A stretch of DNA of 64,000 bases. Source: Agromyces subbeticus DSM 16689. GTDB taxonomy: Bacteria > Actinomycetota > Actinomycetes > Actinomycetales > Microbacteriaceae. The stretch is taken from NCBI RefSeq assembly GCF_000421565.1, contig NZ_ATXG01000011.1:62001-126000 (forward strand), given 5' to 3'. Positions 8,875 to 20,774 of this stretch are shown here, in pieces. Position numbers and translations under genes: made by a program. Below the pieces are notes generated by a model. It ran no database searches. It worked only from the letters and a program-made list of their open reading frames with translations, and was not told the DNA's origin. Position 1 is the stretch's first letter, and each line of letters begins with the position of its first letter.

Positions 8875-9777
8875 TCAGTACCCGAGCCGCGAGCGGAGCA
8901 CCGTGAGCGCGTGCGAGGTCTCGACCGCGAGGTCGGGCGCGAGCGCAGAGACCGACTGCGCGAGCACGTCGGCGACGAGGATCGAGGTCAGCACCTCGGC
9001 GGTCAGCCCGGTGGGCGTGTGCGGCGCGGTGAGCGTGACGGCGACCCTCGGCGCGAGCCGCTCGCGCAGTTCATCGGTGATGAGCACGGTGTGCGCGCCG
9101 ACCTCGCGCGCTCGCCCGACGATCGCCTCGAGCTCGGAGTTGACGCGCCCCGGGGCGAAGAGCACCACGACGTCACCGCTCCGCAGCGGCAGCAGCGCAT
9201 CGGCCAGCCGGAAGCCGTCGGCGTCGAGATGCCGGGCCGATCGGCCCGCTCGACCGAGCCGCAGGCACAAGTGGGTGGCGGCGACGGCCGAGGCGCCGAC
9301 GCCGTAGGCGTAGACCTGACCCGCACGGGCGATGAGCGCGGCGGCGGCGGTGACGTCGTCGACCGAGAGCGCCCGCCGAGCGAGCTCGATCTGATCGCGC
9401 GCCTCGTCCCAGACGCTCGCGGCGATGCGGCCGGTGTCTTCACCTGCGTGGTCGAGCCGTTGCCGCACGCGCTCCTCGGGCGAGACCGCCTCGGTGAAGG
9501 GCGCGGCGACCTGGCGCTTCAGGTCGGCGAGGCCGGCGTACTCCAGCTTCTGCAACGTTCGGATGACGGTGGCATTGCTCGTGCCCGTCTCGGCGCCGAG
9601 CTCGGCCGCGGTTGCGAAGAGCAGGCGTTCGGCCGGGCTGCCGGCGAGCAGGCCACCGACGGCCTGTTCGGCCTTGGACATGGTCTCCCACGCGCCACGC
9701 ACGCGGCTTCGCAGCTCGATCACACCGGGGTTGCGTGTATCGGTTGTTACAGATTGCAGGTCGTGTGTATCATTCAT
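8875..9777 (-). CDS. MurR/RpiR family regulator with SIS domain
   Basis: A 300-residue transcription factor. The N-terminal HTH_6 domain (about 15-90, with TAAELGAETGTSNATVIRTLQKLEYAGL as recognition helices) is followed by a sugar-isomerase (SIS) fold, about 125-270 (YAYGVGASAVAATHLCLRLGRAG, then LRSGDVVVLFAPGR). In this family SIS domains sense phosphosugars such as N-acetylmuramic acid 6-phosphate or other small ligands. It is divergently transcribed from the C45 hydrolase/ABC importer operon, with a shared 88-base control region carrying an inverted repeat. The most likely job is local repression of that operon. The ligand is not known. Confidence 0.9.
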   Translation of the reverse strand: MNDTHDLQSVTTDTRNPGVIELRSRVRGAWETMSKAEQAVGGLLAGSPAERLLFATAAELGAETGTSNATVIRTLQKLEYAGLADLKRQVAAPFTEAVSPEERVRQRLDHAGEDTGRIAASVWDEARDQIELARRALSVDDVTAAAALIARAGQVYAYGVGASAVAATHLCLRLGRAGRSARHLDADGFRLADALLPLRSGDVVVLFAPGRVNSELEAIVGRAREVGAHTVLITDELRERLAPRVAVTLTAPHTPTGLTAEVLTSILVADVLAQSVSALAPDLAVETSHALTVLRSRLGY

Positions 9778-9798
9778 TCCACGAGCATCCTATCTCGT
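9744..9798 (+). promoter_or_regulatory. Promoter and operator of the C45/peptide importer operon
   Basis: TTGTTA (9744-9749) and TATCAT (9768-9773), 18 bases apart, form a plausible promoter reading rightwards. The expected start near 9780 falls at a perfect inverted repeat ACGAG-N8-CTCGT (9781-9798), well placed for repression by the divergently encoded RpiR protein. Confidence 0.45.
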
Positions 9799-9865
9799 AA
9801 CGATCATTCCAACGAAGACGCCGGTGATCCACATGCTAACCGGCGCAGAGAGAACGCCGCCGGAC

Positions 9866-11053
9866 ATGAGCACCACCATCCGCACGATCGAGATCAGCGG
9901 CGCCCCATTCGAACGCGGCACGCAATACGGCGAGGCCGCCACCGATCTCATCTCGTCGGCCATCGAGTACTACGAGGCTGCGTTCGGCCAGCAGGCCGGC
10001 CTCACCTGGTCGGCGGTGCGCGATCAGGCCGCGAGCTGGATTCCCGCCTGTCGAGACGCGGCGCCCGACGTCGTGCGAGAGCTCGAAGGCGTCGCCGCCG
10101 GCAGTGGGCGCGACCTGCTCGACCTGATGGCCCTGAACCTCCGCGGCGAGATCATCTACGACCAGGGTTCGACGCGCACCCGGCCGATGGACCCCGAAGA
10201 GGAGCGCGATTCGAGCGACGGCTGCACGAGCTTCTCGCTCACCGGGGCTGCCGCCGGCGACGGCCACACCTACGCCGGCCAGAACTGGGACTGGCGAGCA
10301 GGAACCCAGCACACCGTCGTCATCGTGCGGGTCGTGCAGGACCCGCTGCCGACGCTCATCATGCAACTCGAGGCGGGCCAGATCGGGCGGCACGGAGTGA
10401 ACTCCGCGGGGCTCGCGCTGAACGCCAACGGGCTCGGCGGCCGCTTCGGCGCCTCGGTCGGACTCCCCCAGACCTTCATCCGGCGCATGACGCTGAACCA
10501 GAGCGAACTGCCCGACGCGATCAACACGCTCGTGCGCACGAACGCCCACATCTCGAGCAACGCGCTGCTCACCGACCGCTCGGGCTTCTCGATCGACCTC
10601 GAGATCACGCCCACGGGAATCGACTGGGTCTACCCCGACGACGGCCTGCTCGTGCACGGCAACCACTACCAGGCATCCGTGCCCCCGCAGCTCGCCGGCC
10701 ACTACCGCCCGGTCTCGGCCGACTCGCTCTTCCGCGTGCCGCAGGCACGATCCGGCCTCGAGCGTGTGCGACATGCCAACGGCCGCGACGAGACCCTCGC
10801 CGGCATCCGCGCCGCGATGAGCGACCACCTCGGCTACCCCGAATCCGTCTGCACCCACCCCGACGAACGACGTCCGGCGGTGCGGCAGTGGTCGACGCTC
10901 CTCTCCAGTTGCGTCGACCTCACGACCGGCGACTACTTCGTCACGAACGGAACGCCGTGCGACCACCCCTATGAGATCCTGCCCTGGAACGCCTTCGACG
11001 GACCGGGCTCCCGCTTCACCACCCCCACCCTGCCAATGGAGGCACACCGATGA
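9866..11053 (+). CDS. C45 family autoproteolytic acyltransferase/hydrolase
   Basis: A 395-residue Ntn-hydrolase of the C45 (acyl-CoA:6-aminopenicillanate acyltransferase-like) group. These enzymes cut themselves before a cysteine, which then hydrolyses or transfers acyl-amide bonds. The cleavage site is seen as SDGCTSF, with Cys120 as predicted nucleophile, followed by YAGQNWDWRAG, a hallmark of the family. No signal peptide, so it should act in the cytoplasm. It opens an operon of six overlapping genes with a complete peptide-type ABC importer; its stop overlaps the next start by four bases. Start 9866 is chosen from family alignment by eye; ATG at 9833 is in frame. A hydrolase for an imported N-acylated peptide is the simplest role. 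Confidence 0.85.
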   Translation: MSTTIRTIEISGAPFERGTQYGEAATDLISSAIEYYEAAFGQQAGLTWSAVRDQAASWIPACRDAAPDVVRELEGVAAGSGRDLLDLMALNLRGEIIYDQGSTRTRPMDPEEERDSSDGCTSFSLTGAAAGDGHTYAGQNWDWRAGTQHTVVIVRVVQDPLPTLIMQLEAGQIGRHGVNSAGLALNANGLGGRFGASVGLPQTFIRRMTLNQSELPDAINTLVRTNAHISSNALLTDRSGFSIDLEITPTGIDWVYPDDGLLVHGNHYQASVPPQLAGHYRPVSADSLFRVPQARSGLERVRHANGRDETLAGIRAAMSDHLGYPESVCTHPDERRPAVRQWSTLLSSCVDLTTGDYFVTNGTPCDHPYEILPWNAFDGPGSRFTTPTLPMEAHR

Positions 11054-12696
11054 ACATCAGCCACCGACCCAGACGAGCCGCCTGGCTCGCGATCGCCGCG
11101 GGCGCGGCCATCGCACTCACCGGATGCACCGCAGACGGCGGTGACCCGTCGACCGCCCCGGCCATCGACATCCCGTTCGGGGCGACGACGCCCGCGGCAT
11201 CCGGGCCCGTCGACTCCGTCGCCTGGATGCTCCCGGCCGAGCCCGCGACCTTCGACTTCGACATCGACAGCGGCGCCGCCGAGAACACCGTCTTCGCGAA
11301 CGTCTGCGAGCGGCTCATGGCCGTGCAGCCCGACCTCACCACGGTGCCGCACCTCGCCGAGAGCGCCGAGTGGGTCGACGACACGCACGTCGTGTTCACG
11401 ATCCGCACCGATGCGACGTTCCACGACGGCAGCCCCGTCACCGCCGACGACGTGCTGTGGAGCATGCAGCGACACGCGGCGGAGGGCGCCGATGAATCCG
11501 ACGAGTACGCGAACGTCACCGCGATGGAGAAGACGGGAGCGAACGAGATCACGGTCACGCTCGCGCAGCGCGACGCGATCTTCATCCAGGCGATGGCCGG
11601 CAACGGCGGCATGGTGCTGAACCCGCGCGTCGTCGAGGCGCAGGGCGAGAACTTCGGCGCCCCGGGAACGCCCGACGCGTGCTCGGGGCCGTACACGCTC
11701 GGCGAGTGGAAGCCCGGCACGAGCCTCACGATCGAGAAGGCCGAGAACTACTGGGATGCCTCGCGCGAGGTGCTCGCCTCCGAGGTCGTGTTCCGCTGGG
11801 CCGACCAGTCGGCCGTGGTGAACGCACTGACCGCGGGCGAGGCCGATGGCTCCTACCTCGATTCGCCGGCCTCCGCTATCCCACTGCAGTCGGTCGACTC
11901 CGTCTCGCTCGCACAGGGACCGTCGACGAACGCGTGGGTACTGCTCGCGACCGAGCGCGGCGCCCTCGCCGATGAGCGCATCCGCCAGGCCCTCTCGCTG
12001 GCCCTCGACCGCGCCGGCATCGCCAAGGCCGCGTTCGGCGACCTCGCCGAGCCGTCCAAGACGCCGATCGGATCGGGAGCCTGGGGCTACGAGCGCGACG
12101 CCTTCGAAGCCGCGTACGAAGCGCTCGAAGGTGCGCCCGCGAGCCCGAGTGCGAGCGACCTCGAGGCGGCGAAGGAACTCGTCGCCGAGGCCGGTGCACC
12201 CGATGAGCCCATCGTGATCGCGAGCGACGGCGGTTCTGTGCGCAACGTCGTCTCCAACGCGCTCGTCGCCGCCGCGAAGAGCATCGGCCTCGAAGCCGAG
12301 ATCGCGACCATCCCGTCGGCGCAGTACGGCGACTTCTACTCCGATGCCGAGCTGCGCGGCCAGGCCGACCTGTTCTCCGACGAGTACTACATCTCCAAGA
12401 ACGACCCCGTCGGCTTCTACAAGAACGGCGCATCCACCGCATCGGTGAACTTCGTCGGCTTCGACGACCCCGAGTACGACGAGCTCGTCACCCAGGCCTT
12501 CGCGGCGACGGATGACGCGGAGCGCGCCGAGCTCGCGATCGAGCTGCAGCGCCGCTGGGTCGAGGCGACGCCGTGGCTGCCCGTCACGCAGAGCCCGTCG
12601 ACGGTCGCCTACTCCTCGAAGCTCACCGGTCTGCCGTCATCGGCCGCGTACCTCTACTACCCCTGGGCCGCCGACCTCGGCTCCTCGCAGGGCTGA
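11050..12696 (+). CDS. Peptide ABC transporter substrate-binding lipoprotein (SBP family 5)
   Basis: A 548-residue extracellular solute-binding protein of the DppA/OppA family. The N-terminus has basic residues, a hydrophobic stretch and a lipobox LTGC (Cys near residue 21), so it should be lipid-anchored to the outer face of the membrane. The SBP_bac_5 domain spans about 75-460, with the ERLMAVQPDLTTVPHLAESAEW and FTIRTDATFHDGSPVTADDVLWSM segments typical of the family. It delivers the substrate to the two permeases encoded next. Its ATG overlaps the stop of the C45 gene. Peptide or acyl-peptide binding is inferred from family only. Confidence 0.93.
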   Translation: MNISHRPRRAAWLAIAAGAAIALTGCTADGGDPSTAPAIDIPFGATTPAASGPVDSVAWMLPAEPATFDFDIDSGAAENTVFANVCERLMAVQPDLTTVPHLAESAEWVDDTHVVFTIRTDATFHDGSPVTADDVLWSMQRHAAEGADESDEYANVTAMEKTGANEITVTLAQRDAIFIQAMAGNGGMVLNPRVVEAQGENFGAPGTPDACSGPYTLGEWKPGTSLTIEKAENYWDASREVLASEVVFRWADQSAVVNALTAGEADGSYLDSPASAIPLQSVDSVSLAQGPSTNAWVLLATERGALADERIRQALSLALDRAGIAKAAFGDLAEPSKTPIGSGAWGYERDAFEAAYEALEGAPASPSASDLEAAKELVAEAGAPDEPIVIASDGGSVRNVVSNALVAAAKSIGLEAEIATIPSAQYGDFYSDAELRGQADLFSDEYYISKNDPVGFYKNGASTASVNFVGFDDPEYDELVTQAFAATDDAERAELAIELQRRWVEATPWLPVTQSPSTVAYSSKLTGLPSSAAYLYYPWAADLGSSQG

Positions 12697-12698
12697 GC

Positions 12699-13649
12699 AT
12701 GACGACGGCGCTCAGGCGGCTCGCGGGCATGGCCGTGACGTTGGTGGTGGCATCCTTCATCATCTTCGCGGCCATGTACGCGGCGCCCGGCGACCCGGTG
12801 ACGTTCCTCATCGGCAACCCGGAGAACCTCACGCCCGAGCGCATCGCCGCCGTGCGGGCCGAGTACCACCTCGACGAACCGCTATTCGTGCAGTATTGGC
12901 TCTGGCTGAGCGGTGCCGTCACGGGTGATCTCGGCACCTCGTTCCAGTACCACCAGCCCGTCGCGGCGATCATGTCGAGTCGGCTGCCCGCCACCCTGTC
13001 GCTCGTCGCCTACGCCGCCGTGCTGTTCACCGTCGCCGGTGTCGGCCTCGGCATCTGGGCGGCCGTGCGCCGGGGCCGGGTCGCCGACTCGGCGGTCGTC
13101 GGAGCGACGACGCTCGCGGCATCCGTGCCCTCGTTCGTCGTGGGCATCGTGCTCGTCTCCTTCTTCTCGGTGCAGCTCGGCTGGTTCCCGGTGACGGGCG
13201 CCGGCGAGGGCTTCGCCGATCGGATGCACCACCTCACGCTGCCCGCGATCGCCCTGTCGGTCGGGGCGCTCGCGATCGTCAGCCGGGTGACCCGGCAGAC
13301 GATGGTCGAACAGTTCGACTCGGAACACGTCGAAGCGGCCCGGAGCACCGGCCTGGCCGAGCGACTCGTCGTGCTGCGCCACGTGCTGCGCAATGCATGG
13401 GGGCCGATCATCACCATGATCGCGCTCGTCATCGCGAGCATGCTCGCGGGCACCGTCGTCGTCGAGAGCGTCTTCGGCATCAGCGGCATCGGCTCGCTGC
13501 TCGTCGACGCCATCAACACGCACGACTTCCCGATCGTGCAGGCGGTGCTGCTCTACATGGTCGTCGCCTACATGATCGTGACGACCCTCGTCGATCTCCT
13601 CCTGCCCCTGCTCGACCCACGCATCGGAAGCCGGGTGAAGACCTCATGA
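12699..13649 (+). CDS. Peptide ABC transporter permease, DppB-like
   Basis: A 316-residue membrane subunit of the importer. The first helix (about 10-30) is followed by the APGDPVTFLIGNPENLTPERIAAVRAEYHLDEPL extracellular loop characteristic of DppB/OppB proteins, then five more helices. The ATPase-coupling EAA loop appears near residues 205-235 (EHVEAARSTGLAERLVVLRHVLRNA). The start at 12699 lies two bases after the binding-protein stop. Its own stop overlaps the next permease start (ATGA). Longer in-frame starts upstream lie inside the previous gene and are rejected. Confidence 0.92.
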   Translation: MTTALRRLAGMAVTLVVASFIIFAAMYAAPGDPVTFLIGNPENLTPERIAAVRAEYHLDEPLFVQYWLWLSGAVTGDLGTSFQYHQPVAAIMSSRLPATLSLVAYAAVLFTVAGVGLGIWAAVRRGRVADSAVVGATTLAASVPSFVVGIVLVSFFSVQLGWFPVTGAGEGFADRMHHLTLPAIALSVGALAIVSRVTRQTMVEQFDSEHVEAARSTGLAERLVVLRHVLRNAWGPIITMIALVIASMLAGTVVVESVFGISGIGSLLVDAINTHDFPIVQAVLLYMVVAYMIVTTLVDLLLPLLDPRIGSRVKTS

Positions 13650-14503
13650 CCACGACCACGGCAGACGCCCTGCTGACCCGCACCGGCCTCACCGGGCGAC
13701 GACGCGACCCGCTCTTCTGGATCTCGACCGGGTTCCTCGCGGTCGTGGTGCTCGTGGCCGCGTTCGCCCCGCTCATCGCGCCCTACGACCCGGAGGCCAT
13801 CGACTTCGCGGCGATCTGGGCGCCACCGAGCCTCGCGCATCCGTTCGGCACCGACCAGCTCGGCCGCGACCTGCTCTCACGGCTGCTGCTCGGCACTCGT
13901 GAGAGCCTGATCGGCCCGTTCCTGCTGCTCGTCGGCGCAACCGTGCTCGGCGTCGCGATCGGCATCGTCGCGGCCTGGAACGGCGGCTGGATCGACGTGC
14001 TGCTCGCACGCATCACCGACGTGATGTTCGCCTTTCCCGGCCTGCTCTTCGTCGTGCTCGTCATCGCCGTGTTCGGCGAGGGCCCAGCGACGGCGGTTGT
14101 GGCGCTCGCCCTCGCGTACGCCCCGGTCATCGCGAAGTTCACGAGGAGCATCGCGCTCTCCGAGCTCGCCCGGCCCTACGTCGACGCGTATCGCGTGCAG
14201 GGCGTCGGCGGCGGGGTGATCGCGGCACGATACGTCGTGCCGAACATGGCGCCCGCGCTGCTCGGTTACCTCGTCGTGCTGTTCGGCGAGGGCCTCATGG
14301 GACTCGCGACCCTCAGCTACCTCGGCTTCGGCGCACAGCCCCCGAGCTCGGAATGGGGCCTCATGGTGCAGGAAGGACAGGACGGCATCGTGCTCGGCCA
14401 CTTCGGGCCGACGCTCGTGCCCGGCCTCGCCATCTCGGCGGTGGTCGTCGCGGTGAACATCGTCGGCGTTCGCCTCTCGGAGCGGATGGGGGCCCGCGCA
14501 TGA
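13646..14503 (+). CDS. Peptide ABC transporter permease, DppC-like
   Basis: A 285-residue second membrane subunit. A cytoplasmic N-terminus leads to a first helix at about 27-48, then PHPFGTDQLGRD-like SLAHPFGTDQLGRDLLSRLLLGTR, the hallmark of DppC/OppC proteins. Four or five further helices and an EAA-type loop (ARPYVDAYRVQGVGGGVIAARYVVPN) follow. It pairs with the product of the preceding gene to form the channel. Four-base ATGA overlaps at both ends show tight translational coupling through the operon. Confidence 0.93.
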   Translation: MTTTTADALLTRTGLTGRRRDPLFWISTGFLAVVVLVAAFAPLIAPYDPEAIDFAAIWAPPSLAHPFGTDQLGRDLLSRLLLGTRESLIGPFLLLVGATVLGVAIGIVAAWNGGWIDVLLARITDVMFAFPGLLFVVLVIAVFGEGPATAVVALALAYAPVIAKFTRSIALSELARPYVDAYRVQGVGGGVIAARYVVPNMAPALLGYLVVLFGEGLMGLATLSYLGFGAQPPSSEWGLMVQEGQDGIVLGHFGPTLVPGLAISAVVVAVNIVGVRLSERMGARA

Positions 14504-15288
14504 CCGGGCCGCTGCTCGACATCGCCGATCTCTCGCTCCGCTACGGCGACACCCGCATCCTCGACCGCGTGAGCCTTCGCGTCGATACCGGCGAGACGGT
14601 CGGCCTCGTCGGCGAGTCGGGCTCGGGCAAGTCGAGCACGGTGCGCGCGGCGCTGCGACTGCTGCCCCCGACCGCGCAGCTCGACGGCAGCGTGCGCATC
14701 GCCGGGCGCGACGTGCTCGGTGCCGACGCGCGCGAACTCCGCGACATCCGCTCGTCAGAGGTGGCCCTGATCCAGCAAGACCCCCGAGGCGCGCTCAACC
14801 CGGTGCGGCGCATCGGCGATTCGCTCATCGAGCGCCTCGTGCTCGTGCACGGCGTGGCTCGGCCCGAGGCGAAGCGCCGCGGTCTCGAACTGCTCGAAGC
14901 GGTGGGCATCTCACGGCCTGAGCTCCGATTCCGCCAGTATCCGCACGAGCTGTCGGGCGGCATGCTGCAGCGAGTCGTCATCGCGGCTGCGCTGACCACG
15001 CGACCGGCGCTGCTGCTGGCCGACGAGGCGACGAGCGCACTCGACGTCACGACACAGGCCGAAGTGCTCGCCATCCTGCGCGACCTGCAACGCGAGCGCG
15101 GACTCGGTCTGCTCTTCATCACCCACGACCTGCACCTCGCGGCGGCGTACTGCGACCGGGTGTACGTGATGCTCAGCGGCGAGATCGTCGAGGAGCTGCA
15201 GGGCGCCGACCTCTTCGCAGGAGCGCGCGACACGTACACGCGTTCGTTGCTCGACGCCGTGCCGACGATCAGGGAGCACCACGCATGA
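14500..15288 (+). CDS. Peptide ABC transporter ATP-binding protein, DppD-like
   Basis: A 262-residue ATPase. Walker A is GESGSGKSST (about 36-45), the Q-loop VALIQQDPRGALNPVRRIGDSL is typical of Dpp/Opp ATPases, the signature is LSGGMLQRV and Walker B is LLLADEATSALD. The H-loop His is in FITHDLHLAA. Many DppD proteins have a C-terminal Cys-rich iron-sulfur extension; this one is shorter and lacks it. It works as a heterodimer with the ATPase encoded next, with which it overlaps by four bases. Confidence 0.92.
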   Translation: MTGPLLDIADLSLRYGDTRILDRVSLRVDTGETVGLVGESGSGKSSTVRAALRLLPPTAQLDGSVRIAGRDVLGADARELRDIRSSEVALIQQDPRGALNPVRRIGDSLIERLVLVHGVARPEAKRRGLELLEAVGISRPELRFRQYPHELSGGMLQRVVIAAALTTRPALLLADEATSALDVTTQAEVLAILRDLQRERGLGLLFITHDLHLAAAYCDRVYVMLSGEIVEELQGADLFAGARDTYTRSLLDAVPTIREHHA

Positions 15289-16142
15289 GCACTGCCAGCA
15301 CTCCCCTCGTCGTCGCCGACTCGCTTCGACGCACGTTCCAGCCCGCCCGTGGCGCCGACCCCGTGGTCGCCGTCGACGACGTCTCGTTCACCATCTCCGC
15401 CGGCGAGTCGCTCGGCCTCGTCGGCGAATCGGGATCGGGCAAGTCGACCATCGCCCGCATCCTCGCCGGCCTCGAACGAGCGGATGCCGGAAGCCTCACG
15501 GTCGACGGTCGCGACCGGCTCGTTCGGGGCCGTGGGCGACGCGCTCGACTGCATCGGGCACGTCAGGTGCAGATGGTCTTCCAGGACCCGTACGGATCGC
15601 TCGACCGGCGTCTCACCGTCGAGCAGACCCTCGTGCACGCCATGCGGCTGCACGGCCTGGCGGCGCGGGCCGACGCCGGGGCTCGCGTCGCGGAACTGCT
15701 CGACCGAGTGCGGTTGGCTTCGGCACAGGGCGCGCTCAAGCCGCACCAGTTGAGCGGCGGGCAGCGCCAGCGCGTCGCGATCGCGCGAGCGATCGCGGTG
15801 TCGCCGTCGGTGCTCGTGCTCGACGAGGCGGTTTCGGCCCTCGACGTCTCGGTGCAGGCGCAGATCCTCGAGCTGCTCGGCGAGATCCGCCGCGACTCCG
15901 GCATCGCACTGCTCTTCGTCAGCCACGACCTCGCCGTCGTCGACGAGGTGACCGACCGCACGCTCGTGCTGTTCCACGGCCGGGTGGTCGAGCACGGGGC
16001 GACGCGCGAGGTGCTCAGGGCACCACGGCACGCGTACACGCAATTGCTCGTCTCCTCGGTGGCCGGCCCCGGCTGGGACCCGCACGAGGTGATCGAGCGG
16101 CGTGCCGCGTTCGAGCGCCAGTCGGATGCGCCGCTGCGCTGA
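15285..16142 (+). CDS. Peptide ABC transporter ATP-binding protein, DppF-like
   Basis: A 285-residue ATPase that closes the importer operon. Walker A is GESGSGKSTI, the Q-loop is MVFQDPYGSLDRRLTVEQTL, the signature LSGGQRQRVAIARA and Walker B LVLDEAVSALDVSVQAQIL. Together with the preceding gene it supplies the two nucleotide sites of the transporter. A strong terminator hairpin begins 32 bases after the stop codon, marking the operon end. Confidence 0.92.
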   Translation: MSTASTPLVVADSLRRTFQPARGADPVVAVDDVSFTISAGESLGLVGESGSGKSTIARILAGLERADAGSLTVDGRDRLVRGRGRRARLHRARQVQMVFQDPYGSLDRRLTVEQTLVHAMRLHGLAARADAGARVAELLDRVRLASAQGALKPHQLSGGQRQRVAIARAIAVSPSVLVLDEAVSALDVSVQAQILELLGEIRRDSGIALLFVSHDLAVVDEVTDRTLVLFHGRVVEHGATREVLRAPRHAYTQLLVSSVAGPGWDPHEVIERRAAFERQSDAPLR

Positions 16143-16223: not shown

Positions 16224-19200
16224 TTACCAGACCAGGATCGGCACCGCGAACGACTCGGAGTCGGCATATGGCGCCGCTCCGTCGAAGCTCGATCGCAGCA
16301 CGTGCACGCCCCGGGTGAGCGGGGGCAGGTTCACCGTGAACCGGCCCTTGTCGGCGGCGTCGAGCTCGACCGTTGCGAGCACGGTCTCACCGTCGGTGAT
16401 CGTCACCGTGCCCACCGGGCGCGACCCGTCGTGCGAGATCACGACGCCCTGGTACTTGAGCTTCGAGCCGGCCTTCGCGAACAGCTTGTTCGGAACACCG
16501 ACGATCGTCGTGTCGACCTCGTCGATCGCCACCTCGATCATGATCGGCACCTCGACGCTCGTGCCGGTCGATGCGACCGAGACCACGAGTTGCTGCGCAC
16601 CCTCGAGACCCTCGGGAATGGTGACCGAGAGGCTGGCCCGACCGATCTCGTCGAACTTCTCGAGCAGCGTGCGGTCGACCGGGGCGGTGCCCAGCACGGT
16701 GTCGCCGATCGACACCGCGACCTCGCCCGCAGCGACCTCGGTCGTGCTGAAGTCGAGCGAGCTCAGCGAGAGCTGCACCGATTCACCCGCCACGTACTCG
16801 GTGCCGTTCGCCGGAGCCGAGATCGTGACGCCCACCGACCGCTGAGCGAGATCGGGGGTGGCGACGCCGTTCGCGGCGAACCATTCGACCGTCGATGCGA
16901 GGTCGACCTTGCCCGTGTCGGAGCGGTTGGTGCCCGACGCGAAGGTGGTGAAGCTGTCGCCGCCACCCGCGAGGAACGAGTTGGCCACCACGCGGTACGT
17001 CGCCGCCGGGTCGATCGGCGTGCCGTTCAGCGTGATCGACGTGACGTGCGAGCCGGTCGGTGCCGTCGGGTCGTAGACGACCTCGACGCCCTTGTTCACG
17101 CCGAGCTTCAGCAGCGGACGGGTCGGGCTCGTCTGCCACTGCTCCTCGAACACCTGCTTGACCTGTGCGCCCGTGAGGTCGAGCGTGACCAGGGTGTTGG
17201 CGAACGGCTGCACGGTCGCAGCCTCCCGGTAGGTCACGTTGCCTGCGGGGTCGTCGACTCCTCCCGATGCGTACTTGAGATCGGCACGGATGCCGCCGGG
17301 GTTCATGAACGCGATGTCGGCGTGACCGTCGACGTTCGCCGCCCACAGGTGCACATCGGCGATGAAGTTGCCGATCGTCGACTCACCGCCACGGTTCTCG
17401 ACGAGCACCGGGTTGCCGTTCGCGTCGAGCCCGGGCTGCTGCGCACGGTTGAGGTCGCCGGTGATCTCACCGACTTTCTGCTTGCCCAGCACATCGGCCT
17501 TAGCCGTGGCGTCAGCCACGATCGCCGCCACCTCGGGAACCGGCTGGTAGACCGAGACCCACGGCGACGTCGGGGTCGCGCGGGTCATGAGGGGCTTCAG
17601 CTCGTTGGTGATCGAGAGGAGCTCCTTCGTGACCGGGTCGACCTGCAGCTGCATGAGCCCGAACTGCTCGCCGTACTGACCGGCCGAGACGACCGGGCGG
17701 CCGTCGACCGTGTGGTTGTACGGCAGGTGCGTGTGCGCCGAGACGATCGCCGACACCGAGTCGTCGACGCCCGCGACGATCTGCGCGAACGGCGAACCGT
17801 CGGTGAGGGCCGAGATATTCGTCGATGATGCACCCTCGTGCACGAGCAGGATGAGCACGTCGGCCTCGCCGTTGGCGGGGTCGCCGTCTTTCAGCTCGGC
17901 AGCGGCCGCGTTCACCGAGTCGACGACGCTGCGCACCTCGAGCTCGGCGATGCCGGCCGGGCTCACGAGCGAGTCGAGGTCTTCGGTCACGGCGCCGATG
18001 AACCCGACGGTCACGCCCTCGAAGGTCTGCGTGAACGTGGGCGCGAGCGCCGTGTCGTCGGTTCCCTTCAGGAACACGTTGGAGCTGATGTACTCCCAGT
18101 CGGCGCGGTCTTGCACGCGGTCGCGCAGGTCCGCCCAGCCCTGGTCGAACTCGTGGTTGCCGGCGGCGCTCACGTCGAGGCCGGCGGCGTTCAGCGCGTC
18201 GATCGTCGGAGTGTCGTTCTGGATGAACGACGTGAACGTCGAGGCGCCGATGAGGTCACCGGCGGCCGCGAACACCGTGTTGGGGTTCTCGGCACGGACC
18301 TGCTCGACGGCTCCCGCGAGCTCGGCGATGCCGGCCGAGGGTGCGGCCTTCTCGATGCGCCCGTGGAAGTCGTTGATCGTCACGACCGAGATGTCGACGA
18401 CGTTCTCGAGTTCGGCCAGGTCGATGCCGATCAGCGTCGGGTCGTGGTCGCTCGAACGGAAGACCGAACCGTCATCGGCTGCCTCGCGGCCGTACTCGCG
18501 GGCGCCCCACTCGGGCGAGTTGATCGCCCAGCGGCCGATGCCGGTGACGGCCTCGGTGCCCTCGGCGTTCGCGAGTGCGTGGTCGAGCGAGCCGAGCTCG
18601 CCGTCGAAGGAGTACGTGTACTCCCCCGGTGCGAGGGCCGGCAGCAGGTCGGTGTAGCCGGCCGCGGTGAGCACCTGGATCGGGTCCTCTTGCGCGTACG
18701 CGTTGAAGTCGCCGAGCAGGAAGACCTCGTCGGCCGCCGCGTCGAGCTGGCCCGCGAGCGTGAGCAGCGAGTTCGCCTGCGCGACCCGGTCGGCATTGAA
18801 GTGGCCCTGGCCGTCGGCCGGCTCGGTGCCGCTTCCGCTCTTGGACTTGAAGTGGTTGGCGATCACGGCGAGGTCGGTGCCGTTCGCGAGCTCGAAGCTC
18901 TGGCCGATCGGCTCGCGGGCGTTGCCCCAGACGGCCTCATCGGTGATCGTCAGCGCCTCGCCCTTGGGCGAGACCGCGTCGGAGCGGTAGATGATCGCGT
19001 TCTGGATGACGTCGGTCGTGGCCGCCGTCAGCGCGGCGGGCGTCGGAACGAAGCTCCACACCTGCGAGCCCTCTGCTGCGTTGAGTGCGGCGACCAGCGC
19101 GCCGATCGCCTCGTCGGCTGTGCCATCGACCTTCAGGGAGTTCTCGATCTCCTGCAGCGCGACGATCTCGGCGTCGAGCGCCGTGATCGCCTCGACGATC

Positions 19201-20774
19201 TTCTCCTCCTGCAGCGCGAACTCCTCGGCGGTGTCCGCACCGCGGGCCTCGGGGTTCTGGCTCGTCAGGGTGGTGAAGTAGTTGAGCACGTTGAAGACGC
19301 CGATCTGCACGTCGCCGCCCACCGCGGGCACGCCGCTCGGGCGCGCGTTCTGCGCCTCGAAGGTCGGCTTCGCCACGGCGCTCACGTTGTCGATCGGCGT
19401 CGCCGGCTGCAGGCGCCATGCGTTGAAGCCGTAGCTCAGCACGTAGGGCGTCGCGGGGAAGACGACGCGGTCGCCGTTGCGAACGATCGTCTCTTCGGTG
19501 AGGTACGGCTGCTCGTTCGGGTGCGCGGCGTTGTCGGCACGGGTGTTCCAGCCGTCGTCGAGCACGAGCAGGCGCGCGCGGTTCGCAGCGGCGATCTCGG
19601 CGGCGGCGGGGCCGGCGTCGACCTGCTCGGTGCTCTTGACCGGCAGCGTCTCGCCGGCGGCGAGCCAGACCGAGCCGAAGCTCGTGGACTCATGGGTGCT
19701 CGACACGAGGTACGAGCCGGTCGGGGCGACGAGCATGCTCTCGAGCGGCTCGCGAGCCGAGCCGACGAGGCTCGACGGCAGCTCGGCCGGAGCCGGCACG
19801 CCGGCCGCGGGGGTCACGACCTCTGCACCATCGGCGACCGCGGTGACCTGGGTGAGGCCGAAGTACTCGCTCACGGTGCCGGTGACCCGCACGAGGTCGC
19901 CGATCGCTCCGACAGCGGGCATCTGGAAGACGAACAGGCCGTCGGATGCACCGGGGGTGGTGTCGGTGTCTGGCGTCTGGATGGTCACGCCGCCGTAGCC
20001 GCCGGAGCGGTAGTCGCCGGTGATGACGCCCTCGACGGTGACCGCGGTGCCGACGAGCGGGCTCGCGTCACCCGTGCCCTGCACCTCGGCGATGGTCGCG
20101 GCGGTGGGGTCGGGCGGTTCGACGACGCCGCCGGAACCCTGCGGTGTGACCGTCTCGGTGAACGTGAAGTCGGCCGAGTTGACATCGGTGTCGGCGAAGT
20201 CGGTGCGCACGATGCTGCCGGGAACCGAGTTGGTGCCGGGGTACGCGGCGACCGCGCCCTCGAAGTTCAGCGATGCGCCGTAGCCGACGTAGTCGACGAC
20301 TTCGGCGTGGTTGACGATCGAGCCGGTGCCGGGGTTGATCGCGCCAGCGACGTTCGCGAGGAACAGCGACCCCGTGGTGCCGCTCGGGCCCCAGGTGAAC
20401 GCGGCGTCGGTCGCGGGGAGTGCGGCGCCGCTCGCGCCGTTGCTGTTGAGGCCGATCAGGTAGTGGCTGTTCGCCGCGATCTCGCCGCTCAGTGCGCCGA
20501 CGTTGCTGGCGGCGCCCGTGCTCGTGGCGCTGCGGTACTGCAGCGACCATCCGTCGAGCTGCACCGCGGAGTCGGTGGGGTTGTAGAGCTCGACGAACTT
20601 GTTGACGAACGGCTGATTGGCACTGCCGCCACGGGCGTACACCTCGTTGATGACGACACCGGTGCCGTCGACCGAGGCGAGGGCCGGCGGCGCGGCCAGA
20701 AGGCCGGCGACGAGTGCCCCGGCAGACGCGGCCGCCACGGCCGCGAGACGTTGGATGGTGCGGCGACGATGCAT
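16224..20774 (-). CDS. Secreted ExeM/NucH-type nuclease fused to 5'-nucleotidase
   Basis: A 1516-residue exported protein with a Sec signal peptide (about 1-33, ending PPALA). Order of domains: lamin-tail domain (about 35-190), an OB-like region (225-350), an endonuclease/exonuclease/phosphatase domain (about 485-780, with VALQEIENS, LGDFNAYAQED and SSDHDPTLIG), a calcineurin-like phosphatase (about 795-1080, with TINDFHGR, AGDLIGAS, AGNHEFDQGW and SAHTHLPYNH), a 5'-nucleotidase C-terminal domain (about 1110-1300) and Ig-like sequence to the end. All metal ligands seem present. It would cut extracellular DNA and then free phosphate and nucleosides. There is no sortase or membrane anchor, so it is probably released. 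A PHO-box-like repeat upstream fits phosphate scavenging. Confidence 0.93.
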   Translation of the reverse strand: MHRRRTIQRLAAVAAASAGALVAGLLAAPPALASVDGTGVVINEVYARGGSANQPFVNKFVELYNPTDSAVQLDGWSLQYRSATSTGAASNVGALSGEIAANSHYLIGLNSNGASGAALPATDAAFTWGPSGTTGSLFLANVAGAINPGTGSIVNHAEVVDYVGYGASLNFEGAVAAYPGTNSVPGSIVRTDFADTDVNSADFTFTETVTPQGSGGVVEPPDPTAATIAEVQGTGDASPLVGTAVTVEGVITGDYRSGGYGGVTIQTPDTDTTPGASDGLFVFQMPAVGAIGDLVRVTGTVSEYFGLTQVTAVADGAEVVTPAAGVPAPAELPSSLVGSAREPLESMLVAPTGSYLVSSTHESTSFGSVWLAAGETLPVKSTEQVDAGPAAAEIAAANRARLLVLDDGWNTRADNAAHPNEQPYLTEETIVRNGDRVVFPATPYVLSYGFNAWRLQPATPIDNVSAVAKPTFEAQNARPSGVPAVGGDVQIGVFNVLNYFTTLTSQNPEARGADTAEEFALQEEKIVEAITALDAEIVALQEIENSLKVDGTADEAIGALVAALNAAEGSQVWSFVPTPAALTAATTDVIQNAIIYRSDAVSPKGEALTITDEAVWGNAREPIGQSFELANGTDLAVIANHFKSKSGSGTEPADGQGHFNADRVAQANSLLTLAGQLDAAADEVFLLGDFNAYAQEDPIQVLTAAGYTDLLPALAPGEYTYSFDGELGSLDHALANAEGTEAVTGIGRWAINSPEWGAREYGREAADDGSVFRSSDHDPTLIGIDLAELENVVDISVVTINDFHGRIEKAAPSAGIAELAGAVEQVRAENPNTVFAAAGDLIGASTFTSFIQNDTPTIDALNAAGLDVSAAGNHEFDQGWADLRDRVQDRADWEYISSNVFLKGTDDTALAPTFTQTFEGVTVGFIGAVTEDLDSLVSPAGIAELEVRSVVDSVNAAAAELKDGDPANGEADVLILLVHEGASSTNISALTDGSPFAQIVAGVDDSVSAIVSAHTHLPYNHTVDGRPVVSAGQYGEQFGLMQLQVDPVTKELLSITNELKPLMTRATPTSPWVSVYQPVPEVAAIVADATAKADVLGKQKVGEITGDLNRAQQPGLDANGNPVLVENRGGESTIGNFIADVHLWAANVDGHADIAFMNPGGIRADLKYASGGVDDPAGNVTYREAATVQPFANTLVTLDLTGAQVKQVFEEQWQTSPTRPLLKLGVNKGVEVVYDPTAPTGSHVTSITLNGTPIDPAATYRVVANSFLAGGGDSFTTFASGTNRSDTGKVDLASTVEWFAANGVATPDLAQRSVGVTISAPANGTEYVAGESVQLSLSSLDFSTTEVAAGEVAVSIGDTVLGTAPVDRTLLEKFDEIGRASLSVTIPEGLEGAQQLVVSVASTGTSVEVPIMIEVAIDEVDTTIVGVPNKLFAKAGSKLKYQGVVISHDGSRPVGTVTITDGETVLATVELDAADKGRFTVNLPPLTRGVHVLRSSFDGAAPYADSESFAVPILVW

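Follow-up and report, generated by a model that had tools for sequence, protein, structure and literature searches.

What does a predicted self-cleaving amidase do when it is encoded in one operon with a complete importer of the Dpp/Opp peptide type? The question is raised by a locus of Agromyces subbeticus DSM 16689, lying within a window of 64,000 nucleotides (the whole stretch of DNA analysed), in which the gene of an RpiR-family regulator is transcribed divergently from an operon encoding a C45 family N-terminal nucleophile (Ntn) hydrolase, a lipoprotein, two permeases and two ATPases. We propose that this locus is probably an inducible catabolic cassette, which would import a small, N-blocked, non-peptide-like amide to be hydrolysed in the cytoplasm. 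An earlier reading of the same DNA (hereafter the original prediction) had suggested that the imported compound is the substrate of the hydrolase. This is also our best reading, because the hydrolase, the importer and the regulator are inherited together, as one unit. The acyl-peptide substrate that it put forward is too specific: the data allow for an N-blocked amide.

The seven genes occur at the positions originally given to them, and their Pfam and NCBIfam identities agree:

8875-9777, minus strand: rpiR-family regulator gene, divergent (Pfam SIS, 4.9e-09; NCBIfam RpiR/MurR-type; alignment with E. coli HexR, MurR and AlsR)
9866-11053, plus strand: C45 family autoproteolytic Ntn-hydrolase gene (NF040521, 4.6e-64; PF03417, 3.5e-15; PDB 2x1d, 6.4e-21)
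11050-12696, plus strand: substrate-binding lipoprotein gene, SBP_bac_5 family (PF00496, 1.1e-61)
12699-13649, plus strand: permease B gene, OppB/DppB type (PF00528, 2.9e-39; ATG at 12699 read off the sequence)
13646-14503, plus strand: permease C gene, OppC/DppC type (ATGA overlap; PF00528, 4e-24; OppC_N, 1.1e-09)
14500-15288, plus strand: ATPase D gene (ATGA overlap; PF00005, 6.7e-24)
15285-16142, plus strand: ATPase F gene (ATGA overlap; PF00005, 1.3e-32)

The coupling of all six operon genes by ATGA overlaps holds at four of the five junctions; at the lipoprotein/permease B junction the ATG (12699) stands two bases past the lipoprotein stop codon.

A conserved cassette inherited as a block

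Homologous loci were picked by the similarity of their C45 protein alone, with one genome per species, which yielded 80 loci, and neighbours were counted at the loci whose contig extends far enough. A complete importer (lipoprotein, both permeases and both ATPases) lies 3' of the C45 gene, in the same order and on the same strand, at 73 of the 75 untruncated loci, and a divergent RpiR gene adjoins the C45 gene at 71 of 76. The conserved neighbourhood of C45, SBP_bac_5 and RpiR genes, to which the original prediction had pointed as a check, is therefore found, and its conservation is far above chance. The cassette is carried by at least ten actinobacterial genera, between which the flanking genes differ; the carriers include Agromyces, Nocardia, Arthrobacter, Nocardiopsis, many Streptomyces and Kitasatospora, as well as Embleya, Nonomuraea, Lentzea, Kibdelosporangium and Micromonospora.

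Among named genomes, the closest is that of Agromyces humatus, with a C45 protein 89% identical. The distribution of the block is patchy. Of 200 Microbacteriaceae genomes sampled, 4 contain a C45 match at E<=1e-20, one being Agromyces subbeticus itself and two others only about 30% identical, and the three other sampled Agromyces genomes gave no match at this threshold. Three further families have close C45 orthologues in 1 of 251, 6 of 249 and 3 of 197 genomes. The pairwise identities of the C45 and importer proteins correlate strongly (rho 0.73-0.94, with 0.92 for the substrate-binding protein (SBP) and 0.94 for the permeases), as is partly expected, species relatedness alone also yielding a correlation. 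The C45 and importer trees agree in two placements, Nocardia crassostreae standing beside Agromyces within the Micrococcales branch and Micromonospora beside Kibdelosporangium, which points to the transfer of the whole block as one unit.

In Streptomyces scabichelini (locus L025, 14778-16145), the two ATPase genes of the cassette are separated by an inserted gene that looks TnpB-like by eye.

The C45 enzyme

The C45 protein scores 216.7 bits against the NF040521 C45 proenzyme model (cutoff 85) and 56.8 against PF03417 (cutoff 23.2). It shares family, fold, five catalytic residues and the Gly-Cys motif with the acyl-CoA:isopenicillin N acyltransferase of Penicillium chrysogenum (MEROPS C45, 2x1d), which it matches by sequence (6.4e-21) and by profile (5.1e-32). 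Foldseek placed its AlphaFold2 model (mean pLDDT 84.6) closest to 2x1c (TM 0.87; 0.86-0.87 for the Penicillium enzyme), followed by acid ceramidase and NAAA; the neighbours also include a penicillin V acylase and a cephalosporin acylase.

The catalytic residues of the Penicillium enzyme are Cys103, Asn119, Asp121, Asn246 and Arg268 (PMC13044924). Their counterparts Cys120, Asn140, Asp142, Asn266 and Arg290 are invariant in 22 diverse homologues, Arg290 having been assigned through the common DSxxR motif, at a point where the single-sequence HMMER alignment is gap-shifted. The two residues of the Gly119-Cys120 pair are conserved in 75 of 76 and 76 of 76 sequences, respectively, and from this motif we predict self-cleavage between them. 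The C45 chemistry of the original prediction, with a Cys120 nucleophile following Gly119, thus agrees with the fold and with all five catalytic residues.

Unlike the Penicillium enzyme, to which it is about 23% identical, the protein is encoded in an importer operon rather than in a biosynthetic cluster, and its pocket has Trp143 and Arg144 where Phe122 and Phe123 bind the substrate in Penicillium (PMC13044924). Arg144 is shared by 75 of 76 sequences. These replacements suggest a more polar substrate and pocket. Because the protein has no signal peptide (by eye), its reaction would be cytoplasmic, as had been supposed.

The importer and its ligand

Similarly to Dpp/Opp peptide importers, the operon combines an SBP_bac_5-fold protein, which here carries an LTGC lipobox with Cys26, with two binding-protein-dependent permeases and two ATPases. 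In the peptide-binding proteins, OppA Asp419 and DppA Asp408 bind the free alpha-amino end of peptides. In contrast, all 25 lipoprotein orthologues compared have Ser or Thr in the corresponding column, followed by an invariant Lys (here Ser449-Lys450). This loss of the anchor of the peptide N-terminus speaks against the general peptide importer initially assumed, and disfavours ordinary peptides as ligand. In the C45-linked SBPs of proteobacteria (20-25% identical), the DP motif is likewise preceded by a basic residue.

The closest solved protein is AapF (profile match 8e-40, top Foldseek hit, about 22% identity), whose crystal ligand is HEHEAA, a plant-derived small amide; MppA, a murein tripeptide binder, is also a structural neighbour. 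We do not propose the same ligand as that of AapF, because the sequence identity is too low. Altogether, we favour an N-blocked, perhaps anionic, small amide as the putative ligand of the importer.

The regulator and its operator array

The regulator is predicted to have the helix-turn-helix (HTH) plus SIS architecture of HexR, MurR, AlsR, RccR and NanR. Its SIS domain scores 36.5 bits (Pfam cutoff 25), the RpiR/MurR/AlsR/HexR models match over about 250 residues (E down to 6e-17, all below the equivalog cutoffs), and the RpiR-type HTH_6 domain scores 20.9 bits (E 3.6e-04), under the Pfam cutoff of 28.3. In SpNanR, the phosphate of the ligand is held by Ser135, Ser179, Ser181 and Thr184, a site highly conserved in RpiR proteins (PMC12713135), and the E. 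coli counterparts mostly retain the loop (SHTGRT in HexR, THSGRT in AlsR, SYSGSK in MurR). Unlike in those regulators, the S-x-S-G-x-T loop has become F-x-P-G-R here (F207-A-P209-G-R211-V212, with P209 and R211 invariant in 76 sequences), F207, P209 and V212 standing for Ser179, Ser181 and Thr184 of SpNanR. Because these phosphate-binding hydroxyl residues are replaced, a standard sugar phosphate, as sensed by MurR, HexR or NanR, is an unlikely ligand. The sugar-linked or muropeptide signal of the original prediction thereby loses its main reason, and the absence of cell-wall genes nearby also disfavours a muropeptide or sugar-phosphate inducer. The nearest RpiR proteins from outside the cassette, encoded on rhizobial plasmids beside peptide-type or iron-type importers, yielded no clue to the ligand.

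The shared operator expected between the divergent genes does exist, as a triplet (9736-9811) and not as a single site. It consists of three copies of the 16-bp palindrome TGTAAY-N4-RTTACA, spaced at exactly 30 bp:

9736-9751, no strand: operator site 1, TGTATCGGTTGTTACA, 1 mismatch against the consensus TGTAAYNNNNRTTACA
9766-9781, no strand: operator site 2, TGTATCATTCATTCCA, 2 mismatches, 30 bp from site 1
9796-9811, no strand: operator site 3, CGTAACGATCATTCCA, 2 mismatches, 30 bp from site 2

The 64-kb window holds no further site with up to 2 mismatches. The called 5' end of rpiR overlaps two of the three sites, which makes its start codon uncertain; the true start may lie further in.

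Across 67 orthologous intergenic regions, the best match has a mean of 1.18 mismatches, as compared with 4.51 +/- 0.07 in shuffles, a value made somewhat favourable by the definition of the half-site on the same regions; this does not explain why the low-mismatch signal appears only with a spacer of 4. At up to 3 mismatches, 43 of these regions have three sites and 16 have four, and the spacing between sites is exactly 30 bp 67 times and 50 bp 27 times. At up to 1 mismatch, the pattern occurs in only two places of the whole Agromyces subbeticus genome, the single place other than the cassette (TGTCATGACAATTACA, contig C10) not rising above the reversed control pattern; in nine relatives, apart from the cassette sites, scattered single matches remained at about the control level. 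Since the genome has almost no other copy of the operator, this cassette seems to be the only target of the regulator.

RccR of Pseudomonas recognises TGTAGT/ACTACA palindromes, two of which are 68 bp apart (PMC5489143), and for MurR the bridging of two adjacent sites has been proposed (PMC12713135). The present array, with a TGTA...TACA-type palindrome as for RccR but with three sites phased at 30 bp, is a variation on this operator habit of the RpiR family.

Related cassettes with added genes

Kibdelosporangium, another Pseudonocardiaceae genome and Micromonospora have a longer form of the block, with an added alpha/beta-hydrolase gene. The same hydrolase family (42-67% identical among the proteins compared) accompanies C45 and importer genes at one divergent locus of Microbacteriaceae and on plasmids from the proteobacteria Tistrella, Phyllobacterium, Chelatococcus, Klebsiella and Pseudoroseomonas. 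These plasmid operons resemble the cassette in their C45 gene, Opp-type importer and adjoining regulator, but differ from it by a GntR regulator, one long ATPase gene, a C45 protein 27-30% identical and, in some of them, AptA and an amidase. Elsewhere, the alpha/beta-hydrolase and the importer accompany gamma-glutamyltransferase, which is another Ntn-hydrolase, or creatininase and N-formylglutamate amidohydrolase genes, and some C45 operons are flanked by genes for the omega-aminotransferase AptA, ornithine aminotransferase or a succinate-semialdehyde dehydrogenase-like protein. The whole reads as a modular amide-degrading system, the product of which may often be an amino compound with a terminal amine. 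Ornithine as the product was not retained, since it has a single case for it, the ornithine aminotransferase gene beside the Micromonospora cassette. The Agromyces version is the minimal form of the cassette.

Several observations were made along the way. The Klebsiella pneumoniae operon with C45, importer and alpha/beta-hydrolase genes (NZ_CP141562.1, L100) resides on a conjugative IncHI1B plasmid, an unexpected place. On rhizobial plasmids (L167, L170, L171), the same alpha/beta-hydrolase family and an Opp-type importer go together with gamma-glutamyltransferase in place of C45, as if two Ntn-hydrolases shared one operon slot. In Micromonospora arborensis (L084, 6673-8828), a diverged RpiR gene is translationally coupled to the ornithine aminotransferase gene and divergent from the C45 cassette. 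C45 genes also stand by PuuE-like genes of the polysaccharide-deacetylase family in Streptomyces cadmiisoli, one Pseudonocardiaceae and two Micrococcaceae genomes (L097, L158, L165, L166), the S. cadmiisoli locus including a polyamine-type importer. Finally, the gene adjoining the Agromyces subbeticus cassette (16224-20774, minus strand) encodes a large secreted protein with lamin-tail, endonuclease/exonuclease/phosphatase, metallophosphatase, 5'-nucleotidase C-terminal and Ig-like domains, a surface nuclease-nucleotidase fusion present at the same site in four other Agromyces loci.

Proposed pathway and alternative explanations

We propose that the lipoprotein would capture the amide compound, which the importer would carry into the cell. 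The C45 enzyme, activated by its own cut between Gly119 and Cys120, would hydrolyse the amide bond in the cytoplasm and so supply general metabolism with an acid and either an amine or an amino acid. The RpiR-family protein would bind the three palindromes of the divergent promoter and repress transcription on either side; binding of the imported compound, or of the product of its hydrolysis, would then relieve the repression. In related cassettes, the added alpha/beta-hydrolase may open a second bond and the omega-aminotransferase may dispose of the released amino compound.

Several points weigh against this proposal. Every member of the cassette is known from its sequence alone, and the ligand deduced for the SBP depends on an alignment at about 20% identity to OppA and DppA. 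At two Nonomuraea loci and one Pseudonocardiaceae locus, a close C45 gene persists where the importer is absent; the enzyme can therefore serve some purpose independently. Lastly, no aminotransferase gene adjoins the Agromyces subbeticus cassette, and the alpha/beta-hydrolase was not found in this genome (E<=0.01, in a search that had no positive control there).

The open-access literature gave no paper on the cassette (C45 with an importer or with RpiR). The statement that no system with this set has been characterised holds to that extent, and is qualified by the functionally similar Pip/Aap systems of plant-associated Pseudomonas, in which a regulator, a hydrolase and an Opp/Dpp importer also serve a small amide. 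In Pip-type loci, a LuxR solo is encoded together with a hydrolase and a Dpp/Opp importer (PMC7301841). These systems are proteobacterial and use PipR and the proline iminopeptidase Pip, whereas the cassette has RpiR and C45, so that the likeness is one of logic only; the cassette is an uncharacterised case of a known general scheme, regulator, importer and amidohydrolase. A sensing module of this kind, in which the importer and the hydrolase would let in, and afterwards clear, an amide signal from plants or microbes that the regulator reports, has for it the comparable pairing of genes (PMC7301841) and the rank of AapF, with its plant-derived ligand, as the closest solved SBP. We consider it unlikely, as that identity is only about 22%, the near-unique operator ties the regulator to the cassette alone as in a simple catabolic operon, and the aminotransferase and dehydrogenase genes of the relatives point to catabolism.

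In the version of the original prediction, acylated peptides or cell-wall fragments would be scavenged, and the SIS domain would respond to a sugar-linked inducer. The SIS domain, the MurR-like annotation and the structural likeness of the SBP to MppA are in keeping with this version, but the replaced phosphate-binding hydroxyls, the missing peptide anchor and the lack of cell-wall recycling genes beside any of the inspected cassettes make it improbable. We regard as very improbable that the acylase action inactivates an imported antibiotic or toxic amide (a beta-lactam or lipopeptide): many carriers are antibiotic-rich soil actinobacteria and the fold neighbours include the two antibiotic acylases, but the active import of a toxin for its destruction is unlikely, Trp143 and the conserved Arg144 argue for a more polar pocket, and no evidence turned up for the beta-lactam-like substrate formerly suggested. 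Little credence can be given to a C45 acyltransferase modifying an imported amine or amino acid, even with a family prototype that transfers acyl groups, since no acyl-CoA-producing gene recurs in the cassette and a dedicated importer in the operon fits degradation better. Hydrolysis of an imported N-blocked amide remains the reading that we prefer.

Significance

C45 enzymes abound in bacteria, and hardly any has a known substrate. A self-contained and transferable cassette that supplies the enzyme with a dedicated binding protein, importer, regulator and operator brings such a substrate within reach: the lipoprotein and the regulator can be used for ligand screening, and the operator as a reporter. 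If our proposal is true, it would define a subgroup of RpiR proteins whose signal is not a sugar phosphate. It is possible, though we hold it at somewhat less than an even chance, that the cassette represents a widespread actinobacterial pathway for the catabolism or signal removal of an undescribed class of N-blocked amides, that its regulators form a non-sugar-phosphate RpiR subfamily with a 30-bp-phased triple operator, and that C45, alpha/beta-hydrolase and Opp-type importer make up a modular amide-degrading system common to actinobacteria and proteobacteria.

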